Part shown: positions 3 to 51,632 of the stretch, piece after piece
Layout: each line of letters opens with the position of its first letter
How positions within the stretch are numbered: the stretch's first letter is position 1
Assembly: GCA_016841365.1 (NCBI GenBank)
Contig: JAENZI010000002.1
Coordinates: 308,517 to 372,279 of the forward strand
Direction: 5' to 3'
Source of the DNA: Anaerolineaceae bacterium
GTDB lineage: Bacteria; Chloroflexota; Anaerolineae; Anaerolineales; Anaerolineaceae
DNA: 63,763 nt
Program-made: the position numbers and the translations under genes
Notes under the pieces: generated by a model
The model's database searches: none
Seen by the model: only the letters and a program-made list of their open reading frames with translations
What the model was told of the DNA's origin: nothing

Positions 3-941
3 TCACAGCAGGCTTACCTGAAGGCATCCAACGCTGAAGCAGACGATCGTTTTGGAAATTCTGTCGCCATCTCAGGGGACACAATTGTGGTTGGAGCCGA
101 ATATGAGGACGGGGATGGCAGTGATGAAGGGATTAATGGCGCAATAAACGCTGGTGCAGCCTATGTGTTTGTGCGCAGCGGAACTGCCTGGTCACAGGAG
201 GCCTACCTGAAGGCATCCAATGCCGAGGCAGTTGATACTTTAGGATATTCAGTCAGTGTCTCAGGGGACACGGTTGTGGTTGGAGCTGTGTATGAGGATG
301 GTGACGGCAGTGACGAGGGAAATAACAGCGCAAGCGGTGCTGGTGCAGCTTATGTGTTTGTGCGCAACGAAACCGCCTGGTCACAGCAGGCTTACCTGAA
401 GGCATCCAACGCTGAAGCAAGTGATTATTTTGGCAGATCCGTTGCCATCTCAGATAATACGGTTGTCGTTGGCGCTTTTTGCGAGGATGGTGACGGCAGT
501 GACGAGGGAAATAACGGCGCAAGCGGTTCTGGTGCAGCTTATGTGTTTGTACGCAGCGGTACCGCCTGGTCACAGCAGGCTTACCTGAAGGCATCCAACG
601 CTGAAGCATTTGATTATTTTGGCCATTCTGTCGCCATCTCAGGGGACACGGTTGTGGTAGCAGCTTATGGCGAGGATGGTGACGGCAGTGATGAGGGAGA
701 TAACAGCGCAGATCACGCTGGTGCAGCCTATGTGTTTGTGCGCAGCGGGATCGCCTGGTCACAGCAGGCTTATCTGAAGGCGTCCAATGCCGAAACATGG
801 GATCTTTTCGGTAATTCAGTCGCCATCTCAGGTGAGACGGTTTTGGTTGGATCTCATTTTGAGGCTGGGAATGGCAGTGACGAGGGAGATAACAGCGCTG
901 GTAATGCTGGAGCGGCTTATGTGTTTGTTAAGCGTGGCCCC
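3..941 (+). repeat. 189-bp in-frame tandem repeat (5 units)
   Basis: Five direct units start at 3, 192, 381, 570 and 759 with identical 189-bp spacing. They are highly similar at DNA level, for example in the stretch encoding the SQQAYLKASNAEA-like segment. The repeats are coding and correspond to propeller blades. The last unit runs into the unique C-terminal tail. Confidence 0.9.
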
Positions 942-971
942 GTTTACTATCTACCGCTCTTTGTGTGGTAA
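3..971 (+). CDS. FG-GAP repeat protein, 3' part (5' end outside window)
   Basis: The frame is open from the first complete codon at position 3, so the gene begins upstream of the window; the GTG at 87 is internal. The visible 322 residues are five repeats with a period of exactly 63 residues (189 bp; the SQQAYLKASNAEA-type unit begins at 3, 192, 381, 570 and 759). Each repeat holds an FGxSVAIS strand, an EDGDGSDEG loop that resembles the calcium-binding loop of FG-GAP repeats, and a GAAYVFVR strand. The FG-GAP family folds as beta-propellers, usually seven blades, so about two blades would lie upstream. The protein ends VYYLPLFVW, a tail also seen on the two other large secreted proteins here. 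Secretion is inferred from this similarity because the N-terminus is not visible. Substrate and role are unknown. Confidence 0.85.
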   Translation, partial: SQQAYLKASNAEADDRFGNSVAISGDTIVVGAEYEDGDGSDEGINGAINAGAAYVFVRSGTAWSQEAYLKASNAEAVDTLGYSVSVSGDTVVVGAVYEDGDGSDEGNNSASGAGAAYVFVRNETAWSQQAYLKASNAEASDYFGRSVAISDNTVVVGAFCEDGDGSDEGNNGASGSGAAYVFVRSGTAWSQQAYLKASNAEAFDYFGHSVAISGDTVVVAAYGEDGDGSDEGDNSADHAGAAYVFVRSGIAWSQQAYLKASNAETWDLFGNSVAISGETVLVGSHFEAGNGSDEGDNSAGNAGAAYVFVKRGPVYYLPLFVW

Positions 972-3349: not shown

Positions 3350-6300
3350 ATGAAAAAGATGTTGTTAAGACTATTTAGTTTATTATTGTTGGCAAGTTTC
3401 ATGGTATCTCCCGCAATTGCACAATCCGATGATCGTGATCCGCGGATCAAGGGGTTGGGAGACCCTGAACCGATGCAAGCTAAGATCTTGGGCAGCACCC
3501 AACGGGTGGATAGCTACATCATCCAGCTGGAAGATGCCTCATTGATCACCTATCGCGGCGATATACCAGGATTTCCTGCGACAAGCCCGGCGGTCACAGA
3601 TGGTGACGTGGATGTTAAGAGCGATGCAAGCATTAATTATCTGAAGTATCTCAAGGGAAAACAGGATGCTTTTATTGCTCTGGCAGAGACCGTCGTTAGC
3701 CGCAGCCTTGAAGTCACCCATCGTTATGATGTGGTGTTGAACGGCTTTACCGCCAAGATGTCTGCCGAAGAAGCAGCAAGGCTGGCTGACCTCGATGGTG
3801 TGCGAGCGGTTTACGCCAATGAAATCTGGGAGCTTTCAACAGATGTGAGCCCAGAGTTCATCGGTGCAACATCACTTTGGGAGGATACGGCAAGCACGCC
3901 CAGCACACTGGCAACACAAGGTGAAGGTATGCTGGTGGGTATCCTTGATACCGGCATCAACATGGATCATCCTTCATTTGCGGATGTCGGCGATGACGGT
4001 TATGATCACACCAACCCCTTTGACGCAGGCGTCTATAAAGGGTTATGTGCGTCAGAACCAACAAACTTCATTTGTAACGACAAGCTGGTGGGCGTTTATG
4101 CCTATACTCAGGCAGATGAAACACTATATGGTGAAGATGCTCATGCCCATGGTTCGCACACAGCCTCCACGGCTGCAGGCAATGTTTTGATCGATGTGGA
4201 TTTCAATGGTATGCCTGTGACCATCTCCGGTATGGCGCCGCACGCCAATATTATTGCGTATGATGTGTGTCACGCGAGTGGCTGCCCCAATGCTTATTCG
4301 GTGGATGCGGTTGAACAGGCGGTCCTGGACGGTGTGGATGTGTTGAATTACTCCATCGGACCCAACAGCCCGGTTAACCCCTACGAAAACGCGGTTGAAA
4401 TGGCGATGCTTGAGGCGATCGACGCGGGCATTCTGACATCAACCTCAGCAGGTAATGATGGGCCAGACCCCAGCACGGTCTATAAAGCCCCTGCATGGAA
4501 CTTGAATGTGGCTAACGTGACCCATGGACGTATTTTCGGGCATCCGGTCACCGTTCAGGAACCCGGTGGACCTCTCTCGTTATACTCGGCAGTTGCCCTG
4601 CCGGGTGTGGGACCAGATTTTACAACCGATTTGGTCAATCAACCGATCCGCTGGGCGGGTGGTGATGTCCCTGCCAATTACACGGGTTGTGCCGAATTCA
4701 GTACAGACTATTTTGCTGGCGCAATTGCATTGATCTCTCGCGGCACCTGTGCTTTTGAGGATAAAGTCAATAACGCCGCAACTGCTGGTGCAGTGGGCGT
4801 GCTGGTTTATAACAACGCTGGCGGCCCGCCGATCGTCATGGGTGGGTTAGAGACGACGACCATTCCTGCAGCGATGCTTGACAAAGAGGATGGCGATGCA
4901 ATCGTCGCTTTGATGTCTGGTTCACTGTTAACCTCAATTGGCAGTGATACTGTGCGTGCGGTTAAAGCGATCTGGGGTGATGTGGTTGCCACAGGCAGCT
5001 CACGGGGCCCTTATGAACTTTTAGATATCCTGACACCCGATGTTGGCGCCCCTGGCACGAACGTTCTGGCAGCCTATAACACACCTGGCGCCACGGCGCC
5101 TTTCGGTGGCGTTGGCACGGATGCAGAGATTAACCTGATGTCCGGCACTTCCATGGCAAGCCCGCATGGGGCTGGCTCAGCACTGTTGCTGATGGACCTC
5201 TTCCCGGATTGGACACCGATGGAGGTCAAGTCGGCGATCATGATGTCGGCTTACAATGACACAGCGCTTAAGGACGATGGCCTCACACCTGCTGACCCGT
5301 TTGATATCGGCAATGGTCGCATTGATCTGACAAAAGCTGCCCTGATCGGGTTGGTGATGGATGAAACTTCCGCCAACTTTGCAAATGCTAACCCTGCAGA
5401 TGGCGGCGATGTCAAGGACTTAAACATCCCCTCCTATCAGAATCGGCAGTGTGTGGGCGAGTGTTCCTTCAGCCGCACGGTGAAAAACGTGGCTGATGTG
5501 GCAACCACATACAATGTGACGGTGGATGGCCCACTGGGTATGGTTGTTACGCCCACACCAGCCAGCTTCACATTAGACCCAGGTGCGACGGAGATCATTC
5601 TATTCGAAATCGATGTGACAGCCGCCGAAATCGGCACATGGCAATTTGCTTACGTCAATTTTGAGACCACGAACGCCTTCACCACTTTTGAACCGATCAC
5701 CAATGCCCGTTTCCCCCTGGCTGTTTTGCCAGATGCTGGCAATATGCCTTCACTGGTTGAAAAAGATGTCTATCGGGATGCAGGCGGTGTGGTCATTGAA
5801 GATTTGTATTCTATCGAAATCACCGAACTGACGGTAGAAACCGCTGGCCTGACAGAAGCCGAACTGTTTGAATTTGAATTGACTGGTGATCCGTACAGTG
5901 ACGATCCCTTTGATAACCTTGATGATGTTTGGTACACCACATTTACCATTCCTGCTAACACAAAACGGGTCGTGATGGAAATTTTAGAGACAACAGCCAG
6001 CGACCTAGACCTGTGGTTTGGAACAGGCACAACCCCTTCGGATGCAACGTTAAAGGATTACTCTGCAACCGGTGAAACGCTTGAATACATCAGCTGGGTG
6101 GACCCGACTCCAGATGACTACTGGGTGCTGGTGCAGAACTGGGGTGGTGATACGACTCCGGATGATGTTGCCCTGGCTCTCGGTTTGGTGCCTGATGCAG
6201 GTCCGAAAAAATTTGATGTCAGTGGACCTTCGGTTGTTCCACCATTAGAATTATTTAACCTTGAACTTACCTGGGACATCGACGAGATGGAACCCCTTTC

Positions 6301-8011
6301 GGCATGGTACGGCTGGTTCAGTGTGGGCTCTGATGCGCTCAACCCGGGCAATATCGGTGAAACCGAACTGAATGTTTACCGCCCATATGATGATGTGGTC
6401 AAAGAGGTCAGCGCTGATCAGACCGAGAACGAGGATGTGGTGACCTATACCATTACCATTGCACCGAACCGAACGGATTCTGACCTGTATTACACCCTCG
6501 AAGATGTTCTGCCGGATGGCGTAACCTTTGTGCCGGGCAGCCTTGAAACGGTTGGCTCGGCGGTGATGGCGACCTATGATGATGTGTCGAATGCCATCCT
6601 GTGGGAAGGTACGGTGCCGAAGGTAGTGTTCACCTATATCCCATCCACACCCGAAACGAACCCCTATTATTGTGACACACCCTTTGGTGGTGGGTTCCTG
6701 GATCTGAAATTACTGGGTGTTATGCCATTAGCAGGCCTTGCTGGCGACTCCTTGTATTGGAACTTCGCGACCCTTGGTGCAGGCCAGGAGTATTATGGTA
6801 AGAAAATTTCTGGCACACCGACTTTCACAACGGATGGCTACTTCTATATGGGGCCATTAACAGAATGGTGGGGTTGGAACCCTCAGCAATTCCCGGATCC
6901 GATTGTGCCGAATAACATTGTCGCGCCGTGGATGTATGACCTGGAAGTTTTCTATGAGGCTGGCTCGAAAGGCGTTGGCGCGGCATCATGGGGCGGCGGG
7001 GTGCTGTGGGCGATCCAGTTTGATGATGTCATTGAGTGGAATTACCCAGATGCTGTGATGGATTTCCAGGTCTGGTCATGGCGGGATCTTGACCCTGCTG
7101 AAGGTTGGCCGGATATGGTGTTTGCCTATGATAACGTCAGCGATGATTGGATGCCATGGGGTTCCATCGGGATGGAAAACGAGGACGGTACGGTTGGGAC
7201 AGATTTTGCCTTTGAGAATTACATCCCATCCTCAGGCGATATCATCTGCTTAGACTACGCAGAAACAAACGCAAACCCGGTCGTGATCACGTTTGACGCG
7301 GTGGTGGAAACCACTGAAGAAAAATTGATCACCAACACGGTAGACCATCTAGCGGATGGATTTGGGATGCTGGAAGAACAGGCATCAGCCGAATTCACCA
7401 ACACGCCTCAGATCAAACCGATTGCGGATCCTCAGGACCTGACCACGGAAGAAGAAACACCGCTGGATATCACCCTGACAGGCTCATGGCTGGAACCTGG
7501 CCCAGAAACCTGGGAGATAGTCACCGAGCCGATGTATGGTACGCTCAGCGGCACACTGCCGAACCTGGTTTACACACCCGATGATGATTTCTATGGAGAT
7601 GATTCCTTCACCTTCCTCGTCAATGACGGGATTGAGGATTCGGACCCGGCGACGATCACAATTGAGGTGACCAATATCAACGATCCGACGCTGGCAGAGG
7701 ACGACTTCTATACGATCGATCTAAACACCGTCCTTGACGTGCCGGCACCGGGCGTGATGGCAAACGATTTTGACGCCGACCCGACCGATGATGTGTTCGT
7801 TGAGTTGAGCGAAGGCCCGATGAACGGCGATCTGGTTTTGAATGCCGATGGCTCCTTCACCTATACACCGGATGCAGATTTCTCTGGCAGTGACAGCTTT
7901 ACCTACGTCCTGCTGGGGATCCCAGAACGGTCAGAATTCTCAGATGTGGCGACAGTACATATTACCGTCACACCTGCGTTGAAGCTCTTTATGCCGATTT
8001 TTGGCTGGTAA
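3350..8011 (+). CDS. Secreted subtilisin-like serine protease (S8) with PA and cadherin-like domains
   Basis: 1553 residues, exported. The signal peptide is about residues 1-25, ending AIAQS. An I9-type propeptide follows (to about 165). The S8 catalytic domain has Asp200 (GILDTGI), His267 (HGSHTA) and Ser601 (GTSMASPHG). A PA domain is inserted at about 410-530, as in the lactocepin/cucumisin type of subtilase. After the catalytic core come a Fn3-like segment, a DUF11-like domain with VVTYTITIAPN (about 1030-1110), an uncharacterised region, and two cadherin-like/Big-type domains (about 1360-1540). The protein ends KLFMPIFGW. All three catalytic residues are present, so it should be active. 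It probably degrades extracellular protein. A strong terminator follows, so it is likely a single-gene unit. Confidence 0.95.
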   Translation: MKKMLLRLFSLLLLASFMVSPAIAQSDDRDPRIKGLGDPEPMQAKILGSTQRVDSYIIQLEDASLITYRGDIPGFPATSPAVTDGDVDVKSDASINYLKYLKGKQDAFIALAETVVSRSLEVTHRYDVVLNGFTAKMSAEEAARLADLDGVRAVYANEIWELSTDVSPEFIGATSLWEDTASTPSTLATQGEGMLVGILDTGINMDHPSFADVGDDGYDHTNPFDAGVYKGLCASEPTNFICNDKLVGVYAYTQADETLYGEDAHAHGSHTASTAAGNVLIDVDFNGMPVTISGMAPHANIIAYDVCHASGCPNAYSVDAVEQAVLDGVDVLNYSIGPNSPVNPYENAVEMAMLEAIDAGILTSTSAGNDGPDPSTVYKAPAWNLNVANVTHGRIFGHPVTVQEPGGPLSLYSAVALPGVGPDFTTDLVNQPIRWAGGDVPANYTGCAEFSTDYFAGAIALISRGTCAFEDKVNNAATAGAVGVLVYNNAGGPPIVMGGLETTTIPAAMLDKEDGDAIVALMSGSLLTSIGSDTVRAVKAIWGDVVATGSSRGPYELLDILTPDVGAPGTNVLAAYNTPGATAPFGGVGTDAEINLMSGTSMASPHGAGSALLLMDLFPDWTPMEVKSAIMMSAYNDTALKDDGLTPADPFDIGNGRIDLTKAALIGLVMDETSANFANANPADGGDVKDLNIPSYQNRQCVGECSFSRTVKNVADVATTYNVTVDGPLGMVVTPTPASFTLDPGATEIILFEIDVTAAEIGTWQFAYVNFETTNAFTTFEPITNARFPLAVLPDAGNMPSLVEKDVYRDAGGVVIEDLYSIEITELTVETAGLTEAELFEFELTGDPYSDDPFDNLDDVWYTTFTIPANTKRVVMEILETTASDLDLWFGTGTTPSDATLKDYSATGETLEYISWVDPTPDDYWVLVQNWGGDTTPDDVALALGLVPDAGPKKFDVSGPSVVPPLELFNLELTWDIDEMEPLSAWYGWFSVGSDALNPGNIGETELNVYRPYDDVVKEVSADQTENEDVVTYTITIAPNRTDSDLYYTLEDVLPDGVTFVPGSLETVGSAVMATYDDVSNAILWEGTVPKVVFTYIPSTPETNPYYCDTPFGGGFLDLKLLGVMPLAGLAGDSLYWNFATLGAGQEYYGKKISGTPTFTTDGYFYMGPLTEWWGWNPQQFPDPIVPNNIVAPWMYDLEVFYEAGSKGVGAASWGGGVLWAIQFDDVIEWNYPDAVMDFQVWSWRDLDPAEGWPDMVFAYDNVSDDWMPWGSIGMENEDGTVGTDFAFENYIPSSGDIICLDYAETNANPVVITFDAVVETTEEKLITNTVDHLADGFGMLEEQASAEFTNTPQIKPIADPQDLTTEEETPLDITLTGSWLEPGPETWEIVTEPMYGTLSGTLPNLVYTPDDDFYGDDSFTFLVNDGIEDSDPATITIEVTNINDPTLAEDDFYTIDLNTVLDVPAPGVMANDFDADPTDDVFVELSEGPMNGDLVLNADGSFTYTPDADFSGSDSFTYVLLGIPERSEFSDVATVHITVTPALKLFMPIFGW

Positions 8012-28457: not shown

Positions 28458-30368
28458 ATGTCATTACATCGCAACCGAACTCAGAAATTGTTTAGCAGAT
28501 TAGCACCTGGTTTGATTTTGATTTTATTGGTGACCGGTTGTACGCGTCCGACCCCAGTTCAGCCATCCCCAACGGTCGGAAGTACTGCGCCACCGACTGC
28601 TACAGAAGAACCGGAAATGAAACCATCCGCCACCCAGTTGCCCGAAGGTGATACGATCTCAAAAATCCAGGGGGCTGGGCACATTTCACCCTATCGAAAC
28701 CAGAAGGTCTCTGATGTAGAAGGAGTTGTGACCGTCACAAGTTTTGACGGTTTTTATATGCAATCTATCGCGCCGGATGATGACCCGGCAACCTCTGAAG
28801 GCATTTTTGTGTTCACAGGGACGATCCCAACTGTGAGTGAAGGGGATCAGGTGATGGTCAGCGGCAGGGTTGAAGAAATGACTCCCGGCGGTGGCTACGG
28901 CAACCTTTCACGGACTCAAATTGATGATGTTGAAATCGAAATCGCCTTGCGTAACAATGATCTGCCGGCACCTACGGTCATTGGCAGGGGAGGCCGTGTG
29001 CCGCCAACGGAAATCATTGACGATGATACCAATGGCTATATCGGCGAAAATGTGTTTTTTGACCCTGAGAGCGATGGGATTGACTTTTATGAGAGCCTGG
29101 AAGGGATGCTGGTACAGGTCAATGATGCGGTCGTCGTCGGCCCAACCAACCAATTCAAAGAGATCACTGTTCTGGTAGACCGTGGGGAGGATGCCAGCGT
29201 CAGGACACCACGGGGCGGGATCGTTATTCGGGAGGATGATTACAACCCGGAAAGGATCATCCTGGATGATTACCTGCTGGAAACGCCCTTTGTCAATGTG
29301 GGTGATTACGCACAAGAACCCATCATCGGTGTGATGGATTTTGATTTTGGCAATTTCAAATTATTGGTGACCGAGCGCGTGTCCTTTGAAGATGGCGGAT
29401 TGCAGCCAGAACGGGTGAAAGCCCCGGCAGCAGAGAATCAGTTGAGAGTGGCAAATTATAATGTGATGAACCTTTCAGCAGTCCAGCCGAACCGGATCGC
29501 ATCCCTGGCTGAGCAAATCGTTTATCAGATGGACTCGCCCGACATCATCGCCTTGCAGGAGGTTATGGATAATGACGGCAGTGAAGGTGATGATGAATTT
29601 TCAGCCGATCAAACCTACCAGGGCATTATTGATGGCATCTTAGCTTTGGGAGGGCCGGTTTATGGGTTTGTGGATATCGACCCGATACCGGATGCAGAAG
29701 GCGGGATCCCGTTGGGGAATATCCGCGTGGGGTTTTTGTACCGTCTTGACCGGGGATTGAGCCTGGCAAATGCCCCGAAAGGTGACTCGAAAACTGCGGT
29801 TGAAGTGGTTGATGAGGGCGGTGTGCCCAAACTTTCACTGAACCCCGGCCGGGTCGCACCCACCAACCCTGCGTTTTACTCCAGCCGCCGGCCGCTGGTG
29901 GTCACCTTTGTGTACCAGGGAGAAACCATTTTTATTATTAATAACCATTTTGTCTCCAAAGGTGAAGACCGTGATCTGTTCGGTGAATTCCAGCCGCCTA
30001 TCCTGGATTCTGAGTACCAAAGGTTGGAGCAAGCGCAAGTCGTGCATGATTTTGTTTTAGAAATCCTGGCAATTGACCCCGAAAGCAAGGTGATTGTGAC
30101 AGGCGACATGAATGATTTTCAATTTTCTAACCCGATCAATCTTTTAGAGGGTGAAATTTTGAATAATCTGATCGAGACCTTGCCGGTCGAAGAACGATAT
30201 AGCTACGTGTATGACGGCAACAGCCAGGCATTGGACCAGATGCTGGTCTCAGACGGTCTTTTCGAGCAGTTAAGTGCCCACGAGATTTTGCACGTGAACG
30301 CAGAATTTCATTATGAAAATCGTTTCAGTGACCACGATATTTTAATGGCGACTTTTGATATGGATTGA
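28458..30368 (+). CDS. Lipoprotein endonuclease/exonuclease/phosphatase (ExeM/NucH-like)
   Basis: 636 residues. The signal peptide ends in the lipobox LLVTGC (Cys about 28), followed by a Pro/Thr-rich linker. The OB-like domain (VEGVVTVTSFDGFYMQS ... GDQVMVSGRVEE) precedes an EEP catalytic domain: ANYNVMNL, LQEV, NNHFVSKGED, TGDMNDF and FSDHD carry the usual metal and catalytic residues. This architecture is that of extracellular DNases. It should be anchored outside the membrane and degrade extracellular DNA or nucleotides. A TATAAT at 28409-28414 may be the promoter. It lacks the FMPIFG-type tail of the larger secreted nuclease at 47403. Confidence 0.9.
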   Translation: MSLHRNRTQKLFSRLAPGLILILLVTGCTRPTPVQPSPTVGSTAPPTATEEPEMKPSATQLPEGDTISKIQGAGHISPYRNQKVSDVEGVVTVTSFDGFYMQSIAPDDDPATSEGIFVFTGTIPTVSEGDQVMVSGRVEEMTPGGGYGNLSRTQIDDVEIEIALRNNDLPAPTVIGRGGRVPPTEIIDDDTNGYIGENVFFDPESDGIDFYESLEGMLVQVNDAVVVGPTNQFKEITVLVDRGEDASVRTPRGGIVIREDDYNPERIILDDYLLETPFVNVGDYAQEPIIGVMDFDFGNFKLLVTERVSFEDGGLQPERVKAPAAENQLRVANYNVMNLSAVQPNRIASLAEQIVYQMDSPDIIALQEVMDNDGSEGDDEFSADQTYQGIIDGILALGGPVYGFVDIDPIPDAEGGIPLGNIRVGFLYRLDRGLSLANAPKGDSKTAVEVVDEGGVPKLSLNPGRVAPTNPAFYSSRRPLVVTFVYQGETIFIINNHFVSKGEDRDLFGEFQPPILDSEYQRLEQAQVVHDFVLEILAIDPESKVIVTGDMNDFQFSNPINLLEGEILNNLIETLPVEERYSYVYDGNSQALDQMLVSDGLFEQLSAHEILHVNAEFHYENRFSDHDILMATFDMD

Positions 30369-47402: not shown

Positions 47403-50400
47403 ATGGAAAACCGGCCAATAATTTTCAATTTTGTGCTGATGTTTGTCATCTTATTCAGCGCGCTTGGGTTTGCCCCCAAAGCTGCAGATGCCGCTGTATT
47501 TGTGATGATCAACGAAGTTGATGCCGACACGGATGGTACTGATGTTCTCGAATTTGTCGAGCTGTATGATGGCGGTGTGGGCAATACAGCTTTGGATGGG
47601 TATGTGCTGGTGTTTTTTAATGGCGACAATGATGACAAATCCTATGCTGCCTACGACCTGGATGGGTACAGCACAGACGCCAACGGCTATTTCTTGTTAG
47701 GAAATGCCGGTGTGGTTCCGACACCATCGATTGTTTTTCCCAGCAACGGTTTGCAAAATGGCGCAGATGCTGTTGCGCTCTATCAGGATGATGCAGCCAG
47801 TTTCCCCTCTGGAACACTTGTAACACTTACCAATCTGATTGATGCCATTGTTTACGACACCAGTGACGCGGATGATGCGGGTTTGTTAACCCTGTTAAAT
47901 GCCGGCCAGCCGCAGGTGAATGAAGCTGGCGGTGCAGGTAGCCCTGTTGATTCGAATCAACGCTGCCCGAACGGCACTGGCGGACTGCGCAATACCGATA
48001 CCTACACACAATTTACCCCAACACCAGGTGCGGAAAATTGTGTTCTGGCAATCTCTGATCCGGTGATCAATGAATTTTCAGCCAGCACCGACGGGACAGA
48101 TGTGGAGTATGTTGAATTTTATGGTGACCCGAATTCAGATTACAGCGCTTACACCATGTTGGAAATAGAGGGTGATGCAGGAACAGCGGCGGGCACTATT
48201 GATGAAGTGATCCCGCTTGGTATAACGGATGCCAATGGTTTATCTCTGGTGAGTCTGCCTGCGAATAGTCTTGAGAATGGCTCCATCTCCTTATTGCTGG
48301 TCAAGGATTTCACCGGTGCACTGAGCAGCGACCTTGATACGGATGATAACGGTGTGCTAGATGCAGAACCCTGGTCAGCCATCGTAGATTCAGTGGCTGT
48401 GGATGATGGTGAGGCAGGGGCGATCACTTACGGTACAACAACTCTGACTGTCGGTTACGATGGATTACCCTACGAGGTCGGTGGCGCTTCTCGCATTCCG
48501 GATGGAGCAGATACCGATGCCGTGACGGATTGGGTGCGCAATGATTTCGATTTGGGCGGTATCCCTGGGTATGAAGGCACGCTGATTGAAGGCGAGGCTT
48601 ACAATACCCCTGGCATGCCGAATATGGTCTATGTGTATGTAATGAGTGACCCCGTCATAAATGAATTCTCTGCCAACACTGCTGGGACAGATGTTGAATT
48701 TGTTGAATTCTACGGTGATCCGGAGACAGATTATACTGCTTACACCCTGCTGGAAATAGAGGGTGATGCGGGGACAGCCGTTGGGACGATTGACGAAGTG
48801 GTCCCGTTGGGGACAACAGACGCCAATGGTTTATATCTGGTGAGTTTGCCTGCTGGAGCCCTTGAGAATGGCTCAAAATCCTTTATATTGGTGCAGGATT
48901 TCACCGGCACGTTGAATGAAGACCTGGACACGAATGATGACGGTGTATTGGATGCAGAACCTTGGTCAGCCATGGTGGATTCAGTGGCTGTGGATGATGG
49001 TGAGGCAGGGGCGATCACATATGGTACAACCACGCTGACCGTCGGTTACGATGGATTACCCTACGAGCCTGGCGGCGCTTCACGCATCCCGGATGGAGCA
49101 GATACCGATGCCGTGACCGATTGGGTGCGCAATGACTTTGATTTGGGTGGGATTCCTGGTTACACTGGCAGCCTTGTGGTTGGCGAAGCCTATAACACCC
49201 CCGGTGAATCCAATATCGCCTTTTCGCCACCCCCGCCAGAATGCGGTGAGCCTTACACGCTGATTTCAGCCATCCAGGGCAGCGGTGCCAGCACGCCTTT
49301 CTACGGGGTGCCAGTCACCACCGAGGGTATTGTGGTAGGGGATTTCCAGGATACGAATGAGTACGGCTTCTACTTGCAGGATCTACAAAGTGCAGTGGAT
49401 GGCGACCTGAGCACTTCTGACGGGATTTTTGTTTACTACACTGGCACGGATGTCAAAGTTGGTGATCATATCCGGATCAGCGGCACGGCAACCGAATATT
49501 ACGATTTGACGGAAATTACTGATATTACGAATTTCTGGACCTGTGCGATCAAACAGAGCCTGCCCGATCCGGGCGTGGTATCGCTGCCCGTCACCAGCCT
49601 TGATGATTTTGAAGCCTTTGAAGGCATGCGGGTGACCTTCCCGCAGGACCTGGTGATTGCGGAATACTTCAATTTTGACCGCTATGGCGAGATTGTCTTG
49701 ACAACGGAGCGGTTCCTTACCTTTACTGCGGAATATGAACCCGATGTGGCTGGCTTTGCTGCTTCAAATGAAGAATACCGTTTGAACAGCATCCGGCTGG
49801 ATGATGGTTTGTCCGCTCAAAATCCCGATCCGGCCATGCACCCGAATGGGTTGGAATTCACGCTTAGCAATTTGTTCAGGGGCGGCGATTTGTTGACGAA
49901 CTTCACGGCCGTGGTGGATTATGCTTATGGCGAATATGAGTTCTTGCCGACAGAAGGCGCAGACTACACCAATGCTAACCCCAGGCCGGCAAGCCCTGAG
50001 ATACTTGAGGGCGATGTTAAGATCGCCAGCCTGAATGTCTATAATTACTTCACCACGATTGATGATGGTGTTGATATCTGCGGACCTTCAGGCACGCTTG
50101 AATGCCGCGGCGCTGATGATTTGGAAGAACTTGCACGCCAGCGGGCGAAGATTGTGGCGGCGTTAGCTGGCATTGATGCCGATATTGTGGGTTTGATGGA
50201 AATCGAAAACGACCGCCCAGGGGTTGACCCGGATTATGCGGCAGCAGACCTGGTGAATGGGTTAAACGACTTAATGGGGGCAGGCACCTACAATTATATT
50301 GCGACGGGCGCCATCGGCACAGATGCGATCAAAGTCGCCCTGATCTACAAAACCGCCAGCGTTACACCGCTGGGCGATCACGCCATTCTTGATACTTCGG

Positions 50401-51632
50401 TGGACGCACGGTTCTTTGATACTTATAACCGGCCTGTGTTAGCCCAATCCTTTACGGTTAATGACGTGAATGAAGTGGTCACAGTTGCAGTCAATCATCT
50501 AAAGTCCAAAGGATCCTCATGCGAATCGATAGGAGACCCAGATAATTCAGATGGTCAGGGCAATTGTAACCTGACCCGGTTGGCAGCAGCCCAGGCGGAA
50601 GTGGATTGGTTAGCCACCGATCCGACTGGCGCAGGAGTAAACAACTACGTGATCATCGGTGACCTGAACTCGTATGATAAAGAGGACCCGGTTGATGCCA
50701 TCAAGGATGGCTCAGATGATACCCCCGGCACGGATGATGATTTTGTCGATATGATCTATGAGGTCATCGGTGAAGGTGCTTACAGCTATCTGTTCGATGG
50801 ACGGGTTGGCTATCTGGATTATGCGATGGTCAATAAAGCTCTCGAACCTTATGTCCAGGATGTTGAAATTTGGCACATCAATGCCGATGAACCGGACCTG
50901 ATCGATTACGATACATCTTACAAGGCAGATGCTCAAGACGCGATTTATGCACCCGACCCATATCGTTCAAGCGACCATGACCCGATCATCCTCACACTGC
51001 GCTTCAACAAACCGCCGTTGGCTGTGGATGATGCCTATGAGACGGCAGAGGAAACCGAACTGGTTGTCGGTGCGGTAGAGGGTGTGTTAGCGAATGACAC
51101 CGACCAAAACGGCGACCCCTTGACGGCAATGCTCATTGATGATGTTTCCAATGGCACCCTTGTTTTGAATGCAGATGGCTCTTTCAGCTACACACCGGAT
51201 GTGAACTTCTACGGTGAGGATCACTTCACCTATTATGCTTATGATGGCGAAGTGGGTTCACTGCCGGCAACGGTGACCATCACGGTAACCGATATCAGTG
51301 ATGTGCCGACGGCTGTGGATGATACCTATGTGACAGAGATCGATACGACCTTAACCGTCACAGCCCCGGGTATTCTTGATAATGATTACAGTTTTGACCC
51401 GACAGATACTCTATCTGTTATCAGGGCACAGGATGTGGCGCATGGGGTATTGACCCTGAATGCGGATGGTTCCTTCACCTATGAGCCTGAGGCTGGATTC
51501 TCTGGCACCGACAGCTTTACTTATATAATCTTCTCAGAAGAACGGGCTGGAGACCTCTCGAATGAGGCGACGGTGACGATCATGGTACGGGCTTATCCCT
51601 TCACATTGTTCATGCCGATTTTTGGCCACTAA
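47403..51632 (+). CDS. Secreted multi-domain nuclease (LTD, EEP, cadherin-like)
   Basis: 1409 residues. The signal peptide is about 1-30 (ending ADAAV). It has three lamin-tail-domain (LTD) repeats (about 32-215, 219-415, 416-610), then an OB-like domain (TTEGIVVGDFQD ... VGDHIRISGTA, about 620-850), then an EEP nuclease domain (870-1200: IASLNVYNY, GLMEIEND, VNHLKSKG, IGDLNSYDK, SSDHDPI). Two cadherin-like domains follow (1205-1400). The tail is TLFMPIFGH. LTD plus OB plus EEP is the ExeM/NucH plan of extracellular DNases. All EEP residues are in place. It should degrade extracellular DNA at the surface. A terminator follows. Confidence 0.93.
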   Translation: MENRPIIFNFVLMFVILFSALGFAPKAADAAVFVMINEVDADTDGTDVLEFVELYDGGVGNTALDGYVLVFFNGDNDDKSYAAYDLDGYSTDANGYFLLGNAGVVPTPSIVFPSNGLQNGADAVALYQDDAASFPSGTLVTLTNLIDAIVYDTSDADDAGLLTLLNAGQPQVNEAGGAGSPVDSNQRCPNGTGGLRNTDTYTQFTPTPGAENCVLAISDPVINEFSASTDGTDVEYVEFYGDPNSDYSAYTMLEIEGDAGTAAGTIDEVIPLGITDANGLSLVSLPANSLENGSISLLLVKDFTGALSSDLDTDDNGVLDAEPWSAIVDSVAVDDGEAGAITYGTTTLTVGYDGLPYEVGGASRIPDGADTDAVTDWVRNDFDLGGIPGYEGTLIEGEAYNTPGMPNMVYVYVMSDPVINEFSANTAGTDVEFVEFYGDPETDYTAYTLLEIEGDAGTAVGTIDEVVPLGTTDANGLYLVSLPAGALENGSKSFILVQDFTGTLNEDLDTNDDGVLDAEPWSAMVDSVAVDDGEAGAITYGTTTLTVGYDGLPYEPGGASRIPDGADTDAVTDWVRNDFDLGGIPGYTGSLVVGEAYNTPGESNIAFSPPPPECGEPYTLISAIQGSGASTPFYGVPVTTEGIVVGDFQDTNEYGFYLQDLQSAVDGDLSTSDGIFVYYTGTDVKVGDHIRISGTATEYYDLTEITDITNFWTCAIKQSLPDPGVVSLPVTSLDDFEAFEGMRVTFPQDLVIAEYFNFDRYGEIVLTTERFLTFTAEYEPDVAGFAASNEEYRLNSIRLDDGLSAQNPDPAMHPNGLEFTLSNLFRGGDLLTNFTAVVDYAYGEYEFLPTEGADYTNANPRPASPEILEGDVKIASLNVYNYFTTIDDGVDICGPSGTLECRGADDLEELARQRAKIVAALAGIDADIVGLMEIENDRPGVDPDYAAADLVNGLNDLMGAGTYNYIATGAIGTDAIKVALIYKTASVTPLGDHAILDTSVDARFFDTYNRPVLAQSFTVNDVNEVVTVAVNHLKSKGSSCESIGDPDNSDGQGNCNLTRLAAAQAEVDWLATDPTGAGVNNYVIIGDLNSYDKEDPVDAIKDGSDDTPGTDDDFVDMIYEVIGEGAYSYLFDGRVGYLDYAMVNKALEPYVQDVEIWHINADEPDLIDYDTSYKADAQDAIYAPDPYRSSDHDPIILTLRFNKPPLAVDDAYETAEETELVVGAVEGVLANDTDQNGDPLTAMLIDDVSNGTLVLNADGSFSYTPDVNFYGEDHFTYYAYDGEVGSLPATVTITVTDISDVPTAVDDTYVTEIDTTLTVTAPGILDNDYSFDPTDTLSVIRAQDVAHGVLTLNADGSFTYEPEAGFSGTDSFTYIIFSEERAGDLSNEATVTIMVRAYPFTLFMPIFGH
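48057..49209 (+). repeat. 591-bp tandem duplication inside the secreted nuclease gene
   Basis: Two direct units start at 48057 and 48648 (period 591 bp, 197 codons). The parts at about 48390-48545 and 48981-49136 are nearly identical in DNA, which suggests a recent duplication or gene conversion of one LTD. Confidence 0.88.

Follow-up and report, generated by a model that had tools for sequence, protein, structure and literature searches.

A Short C-Terminal Tail on Exported Proteins of an Anaerolineaceae Bacterium as a Putative Variant of the YLP-Box Sorting Motif

Introduction

Signals of the LPXTG, PEP-CTERM, and GlyGly-CTERM types lie at the C-terminus, have a basic last residue, and are carried by many unrelated cargo proteins. 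The C-terminal domain of type IX secretion is a folded unit of about 80 residues that is found on unrelated secreted proteins. A much shorter motif, the YLP-box, is represented in NCBIfam by the models NF050076 (sort_motif_YLP) and NF053834 (ultrashort_CTERM), both of which are titled "YLP-box putative sorting motif-containing protein". This work concerns an eight-residue hydrophobic tail that directly precedes the stop codon of three large exported proteins in a stretch of 63,763 nucleotides from an Anaerolineaceae bacterium. This stretch, termed the window, is C19:308517–372279 of the source genome (G000; 2.86 Mb in 19 contigs, 98% complete). Genomes, contigs, loci, and families are designated by the letters G, C, L, and f, respectively.

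The PEP-CTERM signal is described, in the available portion of the source (PMC1569441), as a short stretch of C-terminal homology shared by diverse proteins with a signal peptide. For the Chloroflexota studied, the available portions of two further sources (PMC13319060, PMC7332563) describe multilayered envelopes and no genes for the β-barrel assembly machinery (BAM) complex or lipopolysaccharide. An envelope of this kind is a setting in which an unrecognized sorting route would make sense.

Results and Discussion

Tails in the Window and the YLP-Box Models

The three tails are located on the + strand, and translation together with a six-frame scan gave them exactly as listed in the original prediction. 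The tail YYLPLFVW (945..971, stop codon included) ends the 3′-part of an FG-GAP_2 repeat protein (3..971) that was identified by translation and domain scan. The tail LFMPIFGW (7985..8011 with the stop) ends a secreted subtilase (3350..8011) that contains a signal peptide, Peptidase_S8, PA, and Big_9. The tail LFMPIFGH (51606..51632 with the stop) ends a secreted ExeM/NucH-type nuclease (47403..51632) with a signal peptide, an LTD-like region (32 bits against a cut-off of 34.3 in the Pfam/NCBIfam scan), a nuclease domain, and two Big_9 repeats. The C-termini of the FG-GAP protein, the subtilase, and the nuclease are KRGPVYYLPLFVW (YYLPLFVW), TPALKLFMPIFGW (KLFMPIFGW), and RAYPFTLFMPIFGH (TLFMPIFGH), respectively, each followed directly by the stop. 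The signal peptide of the FG-GAP protein (MHSKNLWRFGKFLFVLIIIILTSLGQK...) lies upstream of the window, beyond a 10-N scaffold gap (C19:308507–308516) that ends where the window begins. This gap falls inside the FG-GAP gene of near-identical repeats, whose apparent repeat number is provisional. In the six-frame scan of the window, the core of the tail is found within eight residues of a stop at nine places, of which three are in long open reading frames (ORFs) and six are in frames of 9–84 codons.

The four lipoproteins of the window that had been named as lacking the tail were confirmed by translation to lack it. The further claim that the three protein bodies are unrelated stands for the FG-GAP protein and fails for the C-terminal parts of the other two: the subtilase and the nuclease both end in Big_9/cadherin repeats, and their last 110 residues are 48% identical. 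Because these C-terminal repeats are homologous, the three window tails amount to two independent cases.

Ten tails were submitted to NCBIfam, and four of these (two from G104, one from f33, and one from L117) scored over the cut-off of NF053834. The tail of the G104 nuclease was over both cut-offs, with 19.4 bits for NF050076 (cut-off 15) and 17.2 bits for NF053834 (cut-off 10). One of ten further tails from the source genome, that of C13:327976, was matched by NF053834 with 15.7 bits (cut-off 10), while its 14.2 bits for NF050076 are below the cut-off of 15. The E-values of the four matches in the first set of ten tails are weak (0.0006 to 0.15), as expected for models so short. Pfam gave nothing for this first set, and matches to GlyGly_RbtA and rhom_dep_M36 fell on protein bodies and not on the tail. 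Since the tails of relatives match NF050076 and NF053834, the kind of tail is already known to curators and not new to the field, and the form found in the window reads as a divergent variant of the YLP-box. No article describing the tail was found among the literature matches listed (title, abstract start, and term counts; preprints and most subscription papers lie outside this coverage).

The tail is like the YLP-box in that the latter is a motif of 10–11 residues at the C-terminus of exported proteins. It is unlike it in that the window forms are L-F-M-P-I-F-G-[HW] and Y-Y-L-P-L-F-V-W, whereas the matching tails are of a [FY]-L-P-[LF]-[VI]-x-[RK]-like form, as compared by model names and scores. 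To judge by the F-M-P-I-F-G-[HW] variant, the family seems to extend beyond what the current NCBIfam models capture. As with LPXTG signals, a C-terminal tag with a basic last residue is carried by many unrelated exported proteins, but the tail contains neither an LPXTG box nor a membrane span. It resembles the PEP-CTERM signal, as described in the available portion of PMC1569441, in being a short C-terminal region on diverse signal-peptide proteins, but has no PEP and no membrane span. The GlyGly-CTERM and MYXO-CTERM signals, processed by rhombosortase and myxosortase, are described in the parts of the sources available as C-terminal sorting signals on many proteins; in contrast to these, the tail has no Gly/Ser box, no Cys, and no membrane span. 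With type IX secretion it shares a C-terminal address on unrelated secreted proteins and differs in being eight residues long rather than a folded domain.

Enrichment on Exported Proteins

A total of 0.83 Mb of the source genome was scanned (all of C19 and C1, positions 1–260,000 of C3, and pieces of C13 and C14), and a simple program based on codon usage gave 664 gene calls. C19 was included as the contig of the window; C1, C3, and the C13/C14 pieces were picked after tail or repeat matches there, and the overall tail rate is therefore inflated, although the division into exported and other proteins was not subject to this selection. The signal-peptide caller is crude: many proteins that are cytoplasmic by eye are called exported, as is one in two ordinary genes if every start within the first 100 codons is allowed.

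A relaxed regular expression for the tail matched 16 of the 664 proteins, compared with a mean of 2.9 and a maximum of 9 when the last 14 residues were shuffled (1000 rounds). For the 121 exported proteins there were 11 matches (shuffled mean of 0.7, maximum of 4). By class, matches were found for 11/90 proteins with a signal peptide, 0/31 with a signal peptide and one span, 0/41 lipoproteins, 3/349 cytoplasmic, 1/110 polytopic, and 1/43 single-span proteins. The enrichment on exported proteins over the rest (11/121 vs 5/543) gives a p of 9e-6 in the Fisher exact test, which bears out the expectation that the C-terminal tail is enriched on exported and rare on cytoplasmic proteins. For C19 only, the values are 4/48 exported and 2/253 others, and the part of C19 outside the window contains one real tail among 255 gene calls.

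Thirteen of the 16 matches are real tails by eye, and all 13 are on exported proteins; the remaining three (ends WYPAIITP, LMPAAE, and YIVPVFK) are chance-like by eye. Three of the 13 were first classed as nonexported, namely, the FG-GAP protein of the window, one C14 protein whose signal peptide is outside the edge of the stretch, and C1:72111. For the last of these, an upstream ATG at 72069 provides MKLTSTLTRLTVAFMVLFSQFSG..., a signal peptide by eye that is still not called by the program. The core [FY][LMIFV]P[LIVM][VILMFA] appears in exported proteins 10 times within five residues of the end and three times elsewhere in 45,193 amino acids. For the nonexported class, the core is found three times at the end (all judged exported, the signal peptide having been missed at the first pass) and 24 times internally. 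Three further tail proteins with predicted signal peptides (C13:327976, C13:377377, and C16:49390) were obtained elsewhere in the genome from 20 stretches at pattern matches, which are not a census. Two broad whole-genome patterns were uninformative (76 forward and 63 reverse vs controls of 66 and 60; 248 and 235 vs 241 and 239).

The Fisher exact test of exported against other proteins gave 6/78 vs 2/285 (p = 0.002) for G104, from stretches of two contigs with known matches. For the evenly sampled G176, 2/33 vs 2/140 (p = 0.16) was obtained, and all four matches are no tails by eye. G005 gave 0/22 exported vs 0/170 others (nine of its ten stretches are even, and the tenth is near its nuclease).

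Sequence Form of the Tail

The consensus of the tail is hydrophobic-[FY]-[LIM]-P-[LI]-hydrophobic-x-[RK]-COOH, with up to two additional residues in some cases. Variants in the source genome are NYLPLFMR, SFLPMVMH, IYFPIFGH, DFLPIMAK (three tandem genes), NYLPLITK, and VFIPLFFK. The distance from the proline to the stop is 4–6 residues in the tails inspected, which leaves no room for a membrane span, and no conserved box is visible at −12 to −9.

When no motif model is used, proline at −5 is found for 36/297 exported vs 56/1208 other proteins in the pooled samples of tail-bearing Chloroflexota, and for 9/58 vs 9/249 in the evenly sampled G166. It is not over-represented in the exported proteins of G176 and G005 (3/54) or of the non-Chloroflexota loci (8/184). 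Within the set of 36 exported proteins, which includes plain nontails, F or Y is at −7 in 17, L at −6 in 15, L or I at −4 in 22, and R, K, or H at −1 in 25.

A cross-clade matrix was built from 31 tails of other genomes and named loci, with G000 and G168, a genome of the same genus, left out of the training. At 6 bits or more, this matrix recovered 9/664 proteins of the source genome, consisting of 8/90 with a signal peptide and 1/349 classed as cytoplasmic; the signal peptide of the latter lies past the edge of a stretch. No proteins were recovered at this threshold from G176 and G005 (0/365) or from the non-Chloroflexota loci (0/727).

Export, Cargo, and Structure

Relatives were sampled as 40 stretches at listed pattern matches in G168, G283, G104, G208, G088, and G152. 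These stretches contain 42 matches to the strict pattern, 26 in ORFs of at least 90 codons and 16 in shorter frames. The 5′-end is inside the stretch for 23 of the 26 tail ORFs, and a signal peptide is predicted within the first 100 codons for all 23 (21 plain and 2 lipoprotein-like); the same lenient call was obtained for 55/109 of the other genes in those stretches. One signal-peptide call was made for the three ORFs cut by an edge.

The tail-bearing bodies include FG-GAP repeats, subtilase, nuclease, and one very long repeat protein, and others are cohesin-like and β-helix-like by eye (without a family scan). The tails of the nuclease orthologs from G104 (SVFLPLVRR) and G168 (DLYLPIIFSP) appear shortly after the nuclease domain, whereas two repeats stand between in the window nuclease. 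Six f33 nuclease loci end in TVYLPFVNKN or TVYMPLVTKN.

The last nuclease repeat and tail were aligned with the window subtilase and five relatives as the input for AlphaFold. The ten-residue means of the predicted local distance difference test (pLDDT) are 90, 96, 93, 85, 96, 97, 96, 92, 73, and 91, followed by 55. The last Big_9/cadherin repeat (51300..51590, + strand) is thus predicted to be confidently folded as far as the tail, and the last ten residues are predicted as coil at a pLDDT of 55 in this one protein. On the sequence evidence, the tail combines export association with INDEPENDENCE from the body, and it stays terminal while the preceding domains change.

Distribution across Lineages

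In 301 Chloroflexota genomes, matches to a 24-base pattern encoding [FY][LF]P-hydrophobic-hydrophobic-x-polar/basic-stop were counted, and those to the reversed pattern served as the control. Sums were made for f1, f2, f4, f18, f21, f23, f28, f29, f31, f33, and G166. The pattern is enriched in f1 (68 vs 25 for the control, six genomes; G176 adds 1 vs 1), f4 (18 vs 2, five genomes), f23 (192 vs 26, 19 genomes), f33 (61 vs 21, seven genomes), and G166 (14 vs 0). It is not enriched in f2, the sister family in the same order (24 vs 36, 17 genomes), in f18 (12 vs 18, 11 genomes), or in f28 (65 vs 112, 21 genomes), nor in f21 (2 vs 1), f29 (2 vs 1), or f31 (0 vs 1).

The pattern was also counted in 49 of 50 locus-derived genomes. 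The 20 genomes behind Chloroflexota-type loci gave 147 matches vs 46 for the control, spread unevenly: Candidatus Chloroploca asiatica, 24 vs 3; Roseiflexus sp. 629F.7, 8 vs 0; Herpetosiphonaceae OHK22, 9 vs 2; Anaerolineaceae BL5_bin.16, 14 vs 3; and several, such as G303, G304, G305, and G311, with no enrichment. The other 29 genomes gave 127 vs 96, and the ten actinobacterial genomes among them gave 0. The largest excess beyond the Chloroflexota-type loci, 33 vs 12, is that of Okeania sp. SIO1I7 (G344, locus L178), for which composition is a possible cause.

Nuclease orthologs were compared across taxa with the best 80 of 530 named loci. In this set the tail is found on 6/19 orthologs titled as Chloroflexota, on 1/3 titled only "bacterium" (L137), and on 0/58 from other phyla; in this last group, 4 are cut off by the contig end and about 3 are misframed. 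The regular expression matched 6/196 gene calls in the first 20 loci, each of them the nuclease itself with a signal peptide, and 0/728 in the other 60 loci, which are outside Chloroflexota; L137 was assigned to the first group once its tail was known. From the pattern counts and the nuclease orthologs, the tail recurs in other Anaerolineae and also in Chloroflexia, unevenly by lineage. It was not detected in f2 or in G176, a member of the family of the source genome.

Search for the Cognate Machinery

Co-occurrence of a sortase-like or rhomboid-like gene with the tail had been proposed as a check, and no link with the tail was found for either. The sortase model PF04203 has a match in 209/301 genomes of the phylum. 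There are no matches and no candidates in G000 and G168 and no match in G255, all of which are tail-bearing by pattern, and a sortase is present in 17/17 of the f2 genomes, which are not tail-enriched; G176 has seven. No exosortase (PF09721) was found in 40 chosen genomes (24 tail-rich and 16 tail-poor by pattern count), and the search gave a match in Methanocaldococcus jannaschii among the control genomes. Rhomboids are present in 39/40 of the chosen genomes, tail-rich and tail-poor alike; the rhombosortase-specific model was not run. Sortase and exosortase were rejected as cognate enzymes for want of a match in the source genome, and rhomboid was rejected because its presence does not discriminate tail-rich from tail-poor genomes. 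The exclusion of sortase and exosortase for the source genome holds as far as the PF04203 and PF09721 models reach; myxosortase (CPBP-type) and the type IX secretion system were not searched.

Because no sortase or exosortase was matched, and genomes contain rhomboids whether or not they have the tail, the known tail-processing enzymes do not explain the tail. What is new here is that the source genome and G168 have no sortase or exosortase match. The presence of the tail on many exported proteins in such genomes indicates machinery that has yet to be named. The tail-enriched f1, f4, f23, and f33, set against f2, f18, f28, and G176 within f1, provide a phylogenetic profile for a cognate-gene search.

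A set of 165 neighbors of tail genes, taken from as many as eight genomes, was grouped using blastp. In four of the groups, two or more genomes are represented: repeat proteins (G000 and G168), a regulator type (G104 and G166), ABC ATPases (G104, G208, and G000), and one pair (G000 and G168). This test is weak because most stretches from relatives extend only some hundred bases beyond the tail gene.

Proposed Role and Alternatives

The tail is probably a very short sorting or retention signal at the C-terminus and a variant of the YLP-box, whether it acts by docking or by processing. The suggestion of a sorting-type signal in the original prediction fits with the position of the tail, its enrichment on exported proteins, and the "putative sorting motif" in the NCBIfam titles. 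The tail proteins are predicted from sequence to leave the cytoplasm via the signal peptide. The last eight residues, hydrophobic-[FY]-[LIM]-P-[LI]-hydrophobic-x-[RKHW]-COOH, would then be free beyond the last folded domain, as predicted for one protein. Together with the free C-terminus, they may be read by an envelope receptor or processing enzyme of the Chloroflexota; a reading of the free C-terminus is suggested by the fixed position of the proline at −5. A dedicated route in Anaerolineae and Chloroflexia, based on neither sortase, exosortase, nor rhomboid, is slightly favored, in which a receptor or enzyme would read the tail and the free C-terminus, place enzymes and adhesins on, or through, the outer layers, and have been lost in f2 and G176.

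Docking of the tail peptide into a protein of the surface or outer layer is considered more likely than cutting and covalent coupling, because the tail lacks a membrane span that would retain it within reach of a membrane transpeptidase and because neither sortase nor exosortase was matched in the genome. Within the sorting reading, covalent processing is nevertheless a tentative option of lower probability. The tail would be a minimal CTERM-type signal, cut by a transpeptidase-like enzyme that couples the newly formed C-terminus to a lipid, a glycan, or a protein of the layers. The C-terminal position, the basic last residue, and the many unrelated cargoes are as in LPXTG, PEP-CTERM, and GlyGly-CTERM, and "ultrashort_CTERM" is the name of one NCBIfam model. 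The 4–6 residues from proline to stop, the lack of a visible box at −12 to −9, and the enzyme searches described above argue against it.

Tsp/Prc-type proteases read nonpolar C-termini, and the tail could in principle be a degradation or quality-control tag; this is quite unlikely, as it would be odd for many secreted enzymes to carry a destabilizing tag and the usual last residue is basic. It is marginally less probable still that the tail is a structural cap, the last strand or a hydrophobic plug of the preceding domain with no role in targeting. The tail is hydrophobic, and the same type of Ig-like repeat precedes it in the subtilase and nuclease. Against such a cap, the preceding repeats are FG-GAP in two proteins and Big_9 in others, and the tail is also found on exported proteins with no evident common last domain; moreover, it is predicted to be unfolded beyond a complete repeat in the one AlphaFold model, and its proline is fixed relative to the C-terminus. 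The least probable account, limited to the window, is that the subtilase and nuclease inherited their tails with the common C-terminal repeat module, to which the identity of their last 110 residues points, and that the FG-GAP match arose by chance. However, the genome encodes another FG-GAP protein, which ends in NYLPLFMR, other exported proteins carry the tail too, and as a general account this explanation is refuted by the distribution in the genome and relatives.

Several observations weigh against a sorting signal of the YLP-box kind in the window and its relatives. NF050076 and NF053834 have no match to the three full-length window proteins at E up to 1, nor to their last 21–40 residues at E up to 10, where the HMMER filters may hide weak matches. 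Two of the window tails end in W, and two of the three tail proteins, the subtilase and nuclease, share a homologous C-terminus. On the cross-clade matrix the window tails take ranks 16, 18, and 24 among 664 proteins, with 2.5, 1.5, and −1.3 bits, and are thus at the fringe. The top score in the tail-poor G176 and G005 is 2.3 bits, and one of the nine matrix matches (C3:180704, 6.0 bits) has no tail by eye. The enrichment by regular expression is not significant for the evenly sampled G166 (1/60 vs 0/262, p = 0.19), and many exported proteins of tail-bearing genomes have no tail. In the pooled samples, proline at −1 is commoner than at −5 in exported proteins (45/297 vs 91/1208 others); proline at −1 is perhaps a second tail. 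The exclusion of the tail from lipobox proteins holds in the window, but a few predicted lipoproteins of relatives (G104; L281 and L314) carry it. The C-terminus is visible in 21/30 nuclease loci of the phylum, and the tail is present on 9/21 and absent from 12/21. Six f23 nuclease orthologs end in FGGG...P with no tail, though f23 is tail-rich. No cognate gene was found, and no neighbor family is present in more than three genomes.

Additional Observations

The large exported proteins clustered at G000:C1:58685–78902 (L092–L093), some of which are cohesin-like by eye, include three that end in proline (...TSWTP, ...GSWTP, and ...AGWLP). The conserved end FD[DH]FGGG, followed by a few residues, a final proline, and no tail, was observed for the nuclease loci L064, L065, L067, L071, L076, and L079 (all f23), L089 (f2), L164, and L116.

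A cluster common to both genomes of the genus is located at G000:C13:240496–249267 (L026–L027) and at L285 of G168. It contains large exported proteins, then one exported protein, and then a small tail protein (VFIPLFFK or IFLPLIVH). In G000, the exported protein before the small tail protein ends with a hydrophobic stretch and KKK.

A lipoprotein related to the nuclease is encoded at 28458..30368 on the + strand of the window; it has a lipobox and lacks the tail (match at C19:337232–338821, 148.6 bits, under the cut-off of the family). The window therefore contains two ExeM/NucH-related nucleases, this one with a lipobox and that at 47403–51632 with a signal peptide and tail. G168 and G283 likewise carry a long and a short copy of the nuclease.

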